Shown: positions 3,113 to 47,921 of the stretch, one piece after another
How the letters are laid out: the number at the start of each line of letters is the position of its first letter
Position numbering within the stretch: position 1 is the stretch's first letter
From: Sedimenticola sp.
GTDB taxonomy: Bacteria; Pseudomonadota; Gammaproteobacteria; Chromatiales; Chromatiaceae
Direction of reading: 5' to 3'
Length of the DNA: 57,440 bases
Assembly (NCBI GenBank): GCA_027083925.1
Contig: JALWMK010000059.1
Span: 1-57,440, forward strand
Notes under the pieces: generated by a model
What the model was told of the DNA's origin: nothing
Seen by the model: only the letters and a program-made list of their open reading frames with translations
Databases searched by the model: none
Program-made: the position numbers and the translations under genes

Positions 3113-3858
3113 GCAAAAGCGCCCGTTATGTTGCAGGCATTCACAGCGTGCGCACTGCCCTGAAACATGGAGCGGGAAAAATACAAGGGGTCTGGTTTGA
3201 TCGCAAGCGCGATGACCGGCGCCTGGGGCAGCTGCTTTCGGAGGCGCGCAAATCCGGTGTGCAGGTAGTCGCAGCAGATAAGCCCGAGCTGGAGCGGTTG
3301 GCGCCTGACGCCCGGCATCAGGGGGTGGTGGCGAGGGTCGCCATGCCCGCTGCCAGAGGGGAAGACTCCTTGGATCGGCTGCTGGAAGAATTGCGGGAGC
3401 CACCTTTCCTGCTGGTACTCGACGGGGTGCAGGATCCGCATAATCTTGGCGCCTGTCTGCGCACGGCTGATGCGGCGGGTGTGCATGCAGTGATCGCGCC
3501 AAGGGATCGGGCTGTGGGACTCACTCCCGTGGCCTGCAAGGTGGCAAGTGGTGCAGCAGAAACCATGCCTTTTATCCAGGTGACCAACCTGGCACGCACC
3601 CTGCGCCAGTTGCGTGAAGCATGCGGGTTGTGGGTGGTGGGATTGGCAGGTGAGGCAGAGCAGCGCATCTATCAAGCCAACCTGAAAGGGCCGCTGGTGA
3701 TGGTGATGGGTGGTGAGGAAAAGGGGTTACGGCGGCTTGTTCGTGAGCAGTGCGATTTGCTGGTATCTATACCCATGGCGGGCGTGGTGGAAAGTGTCAA
3801 TGTATCTGTAGCCACTGCTGCCGGCTTGTTTGAAGCTGTTCGCCAACGGGGGATTTGA
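3109..3858 (+). CDS. rlmB: 23S rRNA (guanosine-2'-O-)-methyltransferase RlmB
   Basis: SpoU/TrmH-family (SPOUT, trefoil-knot) methyltransferase of 249 residues that methylates the 2'-O of G2251 in 23S rRNA. A small RNA-binding N-terminal domain starts at YVAGIHSVRTAL. The SPOUT domain carries the three family motifs: LDGVQDPHNLGACLRTADAAG, a middle VMGGEEKGLRRLV, and the C-terminal IPMAGVVESVNVSVATA. Length and motifs fit E. coli RlmB. The ATG overlaps the rnr stop (ATGA), so translation is probably coupled. Confidence 0.96.
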   Translation: MSKSARYVAGIHSVRTALKHGAGKIQGVWFDRKRDDRRLGQLLSEARKSGVQVVAADKPELERLAPDARHQGVVARVAMPAARGEDSLDRLLEELREPPFLLVLDGVQDPHNLGACLRTADAAGVHAVIAPRDRAVGLTPVACKVASGAAETMPFIQVTNLARTLRQLREACGLWVVGLAGEAEQRIYQANLKGPLVMVMGGEEKGLRRLVREQCDLLVSIPMAGVVESVNVSVATAAGLFEAVRQRGI

Positions 3859-3913
3859 TCTGCCGCGCCGTAGAGGGGCAATACAAAGCAGGATAGCCGG
3901 AGACGCACTAGAA

Positions 3914-3933
3914 CCTGAATCCGTGGGTTCAGG
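3914..3933. repeat. Solo terminal-inverted-repeat palindrome
   Basis: The 20-bp sequence CCTGAATCCGTGGGTTCAGG, within the longer palindrome ACCTGAA...TTCAGGT, equals the terminal sequence of the 160-bp elements at 14769-14928 and 47527-47685 (CCTGAATCC[A/G]TGGGTTCA). It lies in the short gap between rlmB and the FecR-type gene. It looks like a solo end or excision remnant. A hairpin terminator is possible but no T-run follows. Confidence 0.6.
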
Positions 3934-13395: not shown

Positions 13396-14765
13396 TGGCA
13401 AAAGCCAGAACCCTATATGTCTGCCGGGATTGTGGTGGTGGTTTTCCCAAGTGGGCCGGGCAATGCTCCGATTGTGGCGCCTGGAACAGCCTGGAAGCGT
13501 CTATTTCCGAAGCGAATCAAAAGACAATGCCACGCTTTGCGGGATACAGCGGTGATGCAGCGGCAGCCATGATTCGCCCCTTGTCTGCGGTCGATGCCGA
13601 GAAGACCCAGCGTACTGCCACTGGATTACCTGAGCTGGATCGGGTGCTGGGAGGGGGGTTGGTGCAGGGTTCGGTTGTGCTTATCGGTGGTGATCCCGGT
13701 ATCGGAAAATCCACCCTGTTGATTCAGGCGCTGGCCAGCCTTTCGGAGCACATGCGGCCTCTGTATGTCAGTGGCGAGGAATCAGCCGAGCAAATCAGCA
13801 TGCGGGCTGCGCGTCTGGGCCTGCCTGTAGACCGCTTGCAGCTGCTTACGGAAACCTGTGTGGAGCGCATACTGGCTCTGGCGGACAAACACCGTCCCAG
13901 TGTAATGGTCATGGATTCCATCCAGACTTTCTATTCGGAGCAGCTGCAATCTGCTCCGGGAGCCGTGGCTCAGGTGCGGGAATCTGCTGCGCAACTGGTG
14001 CGATTTGCGAAGCAGACCGGCATCAGCCTGTTCCTGGTGGGGCATGTCACCAAGGAAGGGGCGCTGGCAGGCCCCAGGGTGCTGGAGCATATGGTGGATA
14101 CCGTGCTGTACTTTGAAGGTGAGGCAGGCAGCCAGATTCGCCTGGTGCGGGCGATCAAGAACCGGTTTGGAGCAGTGAACGAACTGGGCGTTTTTGCCAT
14201 GACAGACAAGGGACTCAAGGAAGTGAGCAATCCCTCTGCCATTTTTCTTTCCCGCCACGAAGAGCAGGTGTGCGGCAGTGCAATCCTGGTCACCCGCGAG
14301 GGCACACGCCCCATGCTGGTAGAAGTGCAGGCGTTGGTGGATCAAAGCTCCCTGGGAAATCCGCGACGAGTGGCCCTGGGGCTGGAGCAGAATCGCCTGG
14401 CCATGCTGTTGGCGGTGCTGCACCGTCACGGTGGCATCGGTATGGTCGATCAGGATGTTTTTCTGAATATCGTGGGTGGCGTGCGGGTGACCGAAACGGC
14501 GGCTGATCTGCCCGTACTGCTGTCGGTGCTGTCCAGCTTTCGCGACCGGTCTTTGCCCATGGGGCTGGCGGCTTTCGGAGAAGTAGGTCTGGCTGGGGAG
14601 ATCAGGCCGGTTCCCTGTGGTGAAGACCGTGTGCGCGAAGCCGCCAAGCATGGCTTCAAGTGCATTCTTCTGCCTGCAGCCAACCGGCCGCGCAAGGCGA
14701 TAACCGGTATCGAGGTGATACCGGTTCAGCGTCTTTCCCAGGCTTTGTCTGTTCTTTTTGAGTAA
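13395..14765 (+). CDS. radA: DNA repair protein RadA
   Basis: RecA-like ATPase and branch-migration factor in recombination, 456 residues. The N-terminal zinc finger is CRDCGGGFPKWAGQCSDC. The ATPase core has Walker A GGDPGIGKST and Walker B VMVMDSIQTFYS, then the RadA-specific KNRFG motif. The C-terminal third is Lon-protease-like (GMVDQDVFLNIVGGVRVTETAADLP). Length matches E. coli RadA (460). It overlaps alr by one base. A 160-bp inverted-repeat element begins 4 nt after its stop codon, so that element probably forms part of the 3' end of the transcript. Confidence 0.97.
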   Translation: MAKARTLYVCRDCGGGFPKWAGQCSDCGAWNSLEASISEANQKTMPRFAGYSGDAAAAMIRPLSAVDAEKTQRTATGLPELDRVLGGGLVQGSVVLIGGDPGIGKSTLLIQALASLSEHMRPLYVSGEESAEQISMRAARLGLPVDRLQLLTETCVERILALADKHRPSVMVMDSIQTFYSEQLQSAPGAVAQVRESAAQLVRFAKQTGISLFLVGHVTKEGALAGPRVLEHMVDTVLYFEGEAGSQIRLVRAIKNRFGAVNELGVFAMTDKGLKEVSNPSAIFLSRHEEQVCGSAILVTREGTRPMLVEVQALVDQSSLGNPRRVALGLEQNRLAMLLAVLHRHGGIGMVDQDVFLNIVGGVRVTETAADLPVLLSVLSSFRDRSLPMGLAAFGEVGLAGEIRPVPCGEDRVREAAKHGFKCILLPAANRPRKAITGIEVIPVQRLSQALSVLFE

Positions 14766-14768
14766 CGA

Positions 14769-14928
14769 CCTGAATCCATGGGTTCATGACGGCGCATAGC
14801 GCAAGCGCTTGATCCCCCAGCGGTTCAAAAAATGCCCGCTTAACCTGAGGGTGAAGCCAGGATTTTTTGATTCCACCGGGAAATCAATATCATACGCGCT
14901 GCAGCCGCCCTGAGCCCACGGATTCAGG
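14769..14928. repeat. 160-bp MITE-like inverted-repeat element, copy A
   Basis: The ends are inverted repeats: CCTGAATCCATGGGTTCA at the left and TGAGCCCACGGATTCAGG at the right. Aligned without gaps to 47527-47685, it differs at about 11 of 159 positions (about 93% identity). It holds no open reading frame; the interior includes AGCGCAAGCGCT and GATTCCACCGGGAAATCAATATCATACG. No target-site duplication is evident. It starts right after the radA stop codon. The third, solo end is at 3914-3933. Confidence 0.85.
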
Positions 14929-15247
14929 TAATAACTGTTTATTTGCCAACAATGCCGTTTGACTGGGTGCTGCTGCTTTATCTGTGCTGGAGCCTATTGC
15001 GTGGCTGGTGAATGGGTTTCTATCCTGAACTATTCCCCCGCCGGGTTACTATTTGTTGTTGGCCATGCTGGCGGACTTGTGCCAGAGCCGGTTATGGGTG
15101 ACAGTGGTACTCGTGGCTATCCGAATGCTGCCATTTTCGGTTTCCAGCGTACTGTATTCCACTTCGGCCCGCCTGGGCCGGCCATTGGCGGGAATAATTG
15201 TCCAGCAGGCGAAGATACCAAAAACTCTATTTGTTCTCCAAAAGGGC
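14929..15247. other. Non-coding or decayed stretch after radA
   Basis: About 320 bases between the repeat and the bactofilin promoter hold only short, overlapping frames of 60-100 codons on both strands, none with a recognisable domain or a good ribosome-binding site. From 14952 a frame reads MPFDWVLLLYLCWSLLRGW and then stops; from 15053 a different frame gives a hydrophobic 76-residue peptide. This could be the remains of a membrane-protein gene broken by a frameshift, but no family is identifiable. Confidence 0.35.
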
Positions 15248-15277
15248 ATGGCAACTGACGGGCAAGCTACCTATAAT
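15248..15277 (+). promoter_or_regulatory. Candidate promoter for bactofilin gene
   Basis: A perfect -10 TATAAT is at 15272-15277. ATGGCA at 15248-15253 (4 of 6 matches to the -35 consensus) is 18 nt upstream. Transcription would begin near 15284, giving a leader of about 70 nt. Confidence 0.5.
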
Positions 15278-15352
15278 CAATGACTCAGCAAGGGACAATG
15301 CTGGCTTGTCTGCCCAAGGCCGGGCCCCTGTAACTTTCCAAAGGAAATCGCA

Positions 15353-15817
15353 ATGTTTGATAAAACCAAGAAAGAGACGGAAAAGAAGCCATCCGCTCCC
15401 AAAGCAACTGCACCAGCAGCATCCAAATCAGCCCCCGCAAGCAATAGCGGGCAGACTACTACCATCGGCTCTTCGATCAAACTCAATGGTGAGCTGAATG
15501 GTGATGAGGATCTGCTGATTCAGGGACAGGTAGAAGGAAATGTCTATCTCAAGGAGCACAATCTTACGATCGGTGAACAAGGTGTCATCAAGGCCAACGC
15601 CTTTGCGCGGACGATTACCGTGCGTGGCCGACTCACGGGAGACCTCAACGGGATGGAGAAGGTAACCATTACCTCCACAGGCAAGGTAAGAGGAAATATC
15701 GTTTCACCCAAAGTCATCCTTGAGGAAGGCGCAACTTTTAAAGGTAGCATTGATATGGATGCGAAGGCAGCCAAGCCAGCATCTCAGCCGGCACCACCAA
15801 GCGCCAAGTCTGCCTGA
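15353..15817 (+). CDS. Bactofilin (polymer-forming cytoskeletal protein)
   Basis: A 154-residue protein with a disordered Lys/Ala/Pro/Ser-rich N-terminus (residues 1-38), a central right-handed beta-helix domain (about 40-135) and a Pro/Ala/Ser tail. The core shows the bactofilin pattern: TTIGSSIKLNGELNGDEDLLIQG, then VEGNVYL, ITVRGRLTGDLNG and GKVRGNIVSPKVILEEGATFKG. Bactofilins form nucleotide-independent filaments used in cell shape, stalk or appendage placement. An adjacent M23 peptidase, the frequent partner, is missing; the neighbour here is a methyltransferase-like gene 21 nt downstream. Its function in this organism cannot be read from the sequence. Confidence 0.92.
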   Translation: MFDKTKKETEKKPSAPKATAPAASKSAPASNSGQTTTIGSSIKLNGELNGDEDLLIQGQVEGNVYLKEHNLTIGEQGVIKANAFARTITVRGRLTGDLNGMEKVTITSTGKVRGNIVSPKVILEEGATFKGSIDMDAKAAKPASQPAPPSAKSA

Positions 15818-47444: not shown

Positions 47445-47526
47445 AATTTATCCTGTCTGGGAATACTGTTTCAAAATATAGCATTTGAGCTTCCACAAAG
47501 GGAGGGGGTAGCCGGTATTTGTTCAA

Positions 47527-47685: not shown

Positions 47686-47759
47686 ATGCAATTTATTGAC
47701 CTGCAGCAGTTTTTTGCTGGCAACTATGTATTAGAATGAAGCGTATACCAGAGTACTAA

Positions 47760-47921
47760 AGGAACCTCTGATTAATTCATGACCGGTCGCTGATCGGCTG
47801 AAGTTTCCGGCTTCTGTATTACAAATCCTGGCAATAGTCCTGCTATTCCCTGCGATTTATGTCTTGAATCCGAAAATTTCATCTCGGTCATCACTCCACT
47901 CAGAATTAGTCAGGGATTCCT
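47760..47921. mobile_element. Second miniature inverted-repeat element (different family)
   Basis: AGGAACCTCTGATTAATTC (47760-47778) is matched at 16 of 19 positions by the reverse complement of GAATTAGTCAGGGATTCCT (47903-47921). The 162-bp segment between and including them contains no gene. Ends of the CTCTGATTAAT kind resemble termini of insertion sequences, so this may be an internally deleted element. It ends 18 nt before ppk2 and therefore supplies that gene's 5' leader. There is no obvious target duplication. Confidence 0.5.

Follow-up and report, generated by a model that had tools for sequence, protein, structure and literature searches.

A 160-bp palindromic MITE-like element of Sedimenticola and its 20-bp short forms within target duplications

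The 160-bp element at positions 14769-14928 of the window (the whole 57,440-nucleotide stretch of Sedimenticola sp. DNA that was analysed) shows these features of a MITE: it is short, non-coding and multicopy, carries terminal inverted repeats, lies within a target duplication, and is missing from precisely empty sites in a close relative. Many insertions of the family appear to have collapsed to a 20-bp palindromic scar. The reading that we consider probable is that a non-autonomous, fully palindromic MITE is inserted in trans and is then reduced to 20-bp scars when slippage occurs at the hairpin's foot, while the hairpin itself is maintained. The features in the window are as follows.

14769-14928, + strand: copy A of the 160-bp palindromic element, with the left end (CATGACGG side) at 14769; the orthologous site in G009, the nearest relative, is empty
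14769-14788, + strand: left 20-bp end of copy A, itself an imperfect palindrome
14909-14928, - strand: right 20-bp end of copy A, itself an imperfect palindrome
14763-14768: left 6-bp target duplication of copy A, TAACGA (TAATGA at the empty site), which holds the radA stop codon
14929-14934: right 6-bp target duplication of copy A, TAATAA
47527-47686, + strand: copy B of the 160-bp element; the orthologous site in G009 is empty
47522-47526: left target duplication of copy B, TTCAA
47687-47691: right target duplication of copy B, TGCAA (one mismatch)
3914-3933: 20-bp solo palindrome, read as the probable collapse scar of a 160-bp insertion; the site is empty in G009
3909-3913: left target duplication of this solo, TAGAA
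3934-3938: right target duplication of this solo, TAGAA

Copy A is present as first described, a 160-bp non-coding sequence with inverted ends. Copies A and B align without gaps at 93% identity, again as described, but the end assigned to copy B (47685) is one base short of the true end at 47686; the last base of copy B is mutated (CAGG to CAGA). The sequence at 3914-3933, CCTGAATCCGTGGGTTCAGG, had been correctly located as a related "solo end", an imprecise term for what is a complete 20-bp palindrome with TAGAA on both sides. It is one of about 50 20-bp solos inspected; TAGAA is present once in G009 and twice around 3914-3933, so that the solo represents a separate insertion. The 18-bp end matches the window at eight places with up to three mismatches (0.14 expected from shuffles). 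The two ends of the element pair over 18 bp, and a single strand folds end to end (z = -5.5 as DNA, -7.0 as RNA).

Across the 2.58-Mb genome, 60 matches to copy A correspond to about 35 complete or partial relatives, copy B included; most of the other matches are the same places on the opposite strand, since the element is palindromic. The 18-bp end has 161 matches in the genome at up to two mismatches and its reversed control none. At one mismatch there are 122 matches, compared with at most 13 in the 115 members of the host's family, and 10 of 116 genomes of that family have such a match. The original prediction had named a lack of further copies in the genome as evidence against mobility; instead, many were found there and in relatives. 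Among named contigs, more than 81 stretches contain the exact 20-mer, and its carriers among the matches listed are mostly Chromatiales, Sedimenticola, Thiodiazotropha and unclassified gammaproteobacterial MAGs, together with Geothermobacter and Reinekea, a distribution scan in which single matches may be due to chance. Geothermobacter hydrogeniphilus HR-1, from another phylum, carries a 163-bp member within an exact TTCCA duplication (L093:5849-6011), which suggests horizontal transfer. The element matched nothing in the plasmid, phage and viral collections or in Rfam. The 14-bp core of its end gave no match in the literature text searched, and within that scope the suggestion that the family may be undescribed holds.

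Mobility is evident from the flanks of the elements and from the empty sites. In a set that combines elements of this genome with others on named contigs from further genomes, the length distribution has two sharply defined classes, one of 20 bp and one of 160/161 bp. A 5-bp duplication is exact around 30 of the 54 full copies and 24 of the 69 solos, against about 0.95 in each class for shuffled flanks, and an exact 6-bp duplication is found around six full copies and four solos. Within the genome itself, 23 of 60 short matches have an exact 5-bp duplication (0.66 when shuffled); about 50 of the 60 are genuine solos and the others are ends of partial copies, and the sample, drawn from the best 100 matches ranked by mismatches, is biased towards perfect solos. 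Solos were counted from such match lists and from extracted stretches. Insertion sites are found less frequently within long reading frames than are control points: the share lying in a stop-free stretch of 150 aa or more is 0.39 for full copies, 0.60 for solos and 0.90 for control points.

G009 is approximately 96% identical beside copy A, and its orthologous site is precisely empty, reading TAATGA where the Sedimenticola genome reads TAACGA-element-TAATAA. The same holds for copy B and for no fewer than nine solos, at whose sites G009 carries the duplicated bases once. G009 has just seven end matches at two mismatches, and from this and the empty sites it follows that the expansion of the family postdates the split between the two lineages. 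The family has thus undergone a recent lineage-specific transposition burst rather than vertical inheritance. The MITE-like behaviour originally proposed is borne out by the many locations, by 5/6-bp duplications far above shuffled flanks and by the precise empty sites; the opposing outcome, the same sequence at the same places in all relatives, did not occur, as the sites of both copies A and B are empty in G009.

The short forms were compared with the products expected from deletion between direct repeats. The 160-bp consensus contains CCTGAA at positions 1 and 141 and TTCA at positions 15 and 155, and deletion between direct repeats is predicted to leave, at its shortest, 20 bp (CCTGAA, TTCA) or 31 bp (ATCCG, ACGG). 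The short forms found measure 20 bp or, in only two known cases, 31 bp; both of the latter have the ACGG junction, and one lies within an exact AAGAT duplication. Partial forms of 102-150 bp also lie within exact duplications. Collapse in place by slippage is suggested by these product sizes and junctions. The sequence variants of the solos relative to the two ends do not discriminate which direct repeat is used, and among orthologous sites none was found that is full-length (160 bp) in one genome and short (20 bp) in a second. Some solos are old, as one site is occupied in three genomes of the Thiodiazotropha group.

Insertion of the 20-bp palindrome as a unit by a transposase, with the 160-bp and 20-bp sequences being independent mobile forms, is the alternative that survives best, although we regard it as unlikely. 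It is supported by the number of solos, which equals or exceeds that of full copies, by the many solos that combine perfect cores with exact duplications, and by some genomes that showed solos only. Against it, the sizes found are the two predicted for slippage products, 20 and 31 bp, and a 20-bp unit would be very short for two transposase-bound ends.

Two further kinds of solo were observed. A 28-bp form at L040:1501-1528 (G000:C24) consists of the 20-bp solo plus an 8-bp tandem repeat within an exact TGTTA duplication. At L143:3126-3145, L150:2251-2270, L337 (the site of L123) and L076:4495-4514 the flanking repeats are inverted, not direct (for example AACAGGCT / AGCCTGTT) and lengthen the palindrome of the solo; template switching or a palindromic target could account for them.

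The 20-bp solos resemble REP sequences, and the label "REP-like" given to the family holds for this appearance; target duplications and the absence of GTAG separate the solos from REPs. We consider it very unlikely that the family is a REPIN/REP system, in which an inverted REP pair forms a hairpin, a RAYT (Y1 transposase) moves single-stranded DNA, and solos are decayed singlets. IS200/IS605 elements are not known to duplicate their target on insertion, whereas 5/6-bp duplications are present here at both full copies and solos. GTAG or CTAC occurs within 6 bp in none of 51 solos. The genome does contain one intact Y1_Tnp gene and fragments, but no element end lies near these loci, and hence there is no linked RAYT with flanking palindromes. 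The general outline is nevertheless that of REPINs: short palindromes in inverted orientation, a hairpin with compensatory changes, and doublets together with singlets (PMC3116915). As a candidate REPIN, the element thus has the inverted-palindrome hairpin and its compensatory changes and lacks the GTAG tag, the linked RAYT and the insertion without duplication.

Members from the Sedimenticola genome itself, HyVt-583, the relatives G004/G006/G009 and Geothermobacter have diverged in their interiors while length (160-163 bp), ends and pairing are kept. In an alignment that was not fitted to the structure, 94.9% of cells pair, compared with 84.3% after shuffling and at most 45.7% after sliding, and 98 cells are changed on both sides, compared with 36 after shuffling. 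These figures are strong but do not translate into a probability, because the structure was predicted from the alignment that was tested, whose rows are themselves related. Diverged subfamilies, one of them in Geothermobacter, have retained the length, the ends and, by compensatory changes, the hairpin. The numbers of G.U and A.C cells are nearly equal (31 and 27), indicating no strand preference and favouring a palindrome at the DNA level over an RNA made from one strand. An RNA-level regulatory or terminator element inherited vertically at fixed places, as the very stable fold, the compensatory changes and the mostly intergenic location might otherwise suggest, is hardly credible given the empty orthologous sites, the target duplications, the lack of an Rfam match and the equally common G.U and A.C cells. 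The empty sites and duplications refute vertical inheritance, though individual copies may have acquired an RNA function secondarily.

Copy A had been placed just after a stop codon. More precisely, the radA TAA (14763-14765) falls inside the duplicated target TAATGA, which in G009 overlaps both this stop codon and the ATG start of a Colicin_V (CvpA-like) gene, so that the insertion spans the end of one gene and the start of the next. The Colicin_V gene that follows radA (window 14931-15400) is a decayed pseudogene with no ATG and an in-frame stop, and is intact in G009. Copy A and the decay of this gene coincide at one locus, and the observation is of coincidence only.

Nested in two copies of the 160-bp family, at a near-identical internal position, is a second palindromic repeat whose ends read GGGCACCTCTATTAATTC:

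L029:1587-1746 (G000:C70): nested second-repeat site
L161 ~3360-3540 (G000:C165): nested second-repeat site

Shortly after copy B, window 47764-47778 reads ACCTCTGATTAATTC, which resembles these ends; no partner arm was found nearby.

An autonomous transposase sharing the ends of the element, which the original prediction had proposed looking for, was not found: searches of 10-20 genomes with PF13701 and PF01609 gave matches, none of which had matching ends. Among end pairs 0.2-4.5 kb apart, none had a full duplication except one copy holding a nested MITE. IS1380-family elements have ends that begin with CCT and generate duplications of about 5 bp, as does the element studied here, and it is solely these two likenesses that suggest an IS1380 mobiliser. 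Two full-length IS1380-type copies (G060) have CCTAG ends, unlike CCTGAATCC; most other matches are fragments, and none found carries CCTGAATCC.

For the palindromic MITE inserted in trans and reduced by slippage, the following sequence of events can be proposed. A transposase, probably of the DDE type in view of the target duplication, would insert the 160-bp unit at mostly AT-rich intergenic sites, generating a 5- or 6-bp target duplication; the insertion and duplication are themselves observed. The long hairpin would be unstable once inserted, and replication slippage between the short direct repeats at its foot (CCTGAA 1/141 or TTCA 15/155) would delete 140 bp, leaving a 20-bp palindrome between intact target duplications. 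The compensatory changes suggest that the hairpin is maintained, through selection or homogenisation of the arms, probably since transposition requires it. This suggests a route by which short genomic palindromes may originate. A broader proposal, which we hold tentatively and at slightly less than an even chance, is that mobile palindromes usually collapse to 20 bp within their target duplication, that REP-like repeats thus arise by MITE insertion and hairpin-driven deletion independently of a RAYT, and that the 160-bp hairpin is under selection across bacterial phyla.

Among known systems, the palindromic MITEs (Correia/NEMIS, ERIC, RUP, YPAL; PMC2229807) are alike in being non-coding sequences of 100-200 bp with terminal inverted repeats, target duplication, a long stem-loop and a mostly intergenic location. 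The 160-bp element differs in its 5/6-bp duplication instead of TA ends, and in that most copies here are a 20-bp palindrome between duplications; a sequence match was sought in Rfam and the literature. TIMEs, derived from Tn3, are likewise non-autonomous, with 5- or 6-bp duplications and AT-rich targets, but are at least 262 bp long and have Tn3-type ends, a dissimilarity judged by eye (PMC4133298). Nearly precise excision of the Tn10 type (PMC12524634) is similar in that short direct repeats close to the two ends of a hairpin element delimit the deletion, which leaves a remnant within the target duplication; it is a rare laboratory event in a large transposon, whereas collapse would be the usual fate of the 160-bp MITE. 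REPINs and REP singlets share two inverted short palindromes, a hairpin-forming spacer with compensatory changes, and doublets accompanied by common singlets that are interpreted as remnants, and differ from the 160-bp element in its target duplications, its lack of GTAG and of a linked RAYT, and its length of 160 rather than about 100 bp (PMC3116915). The cause of the frequent REP singlets was left open in that work (PMC3116915); the present family has a comparable two-state pattern, in which target duplications show the solos to be insertion events.
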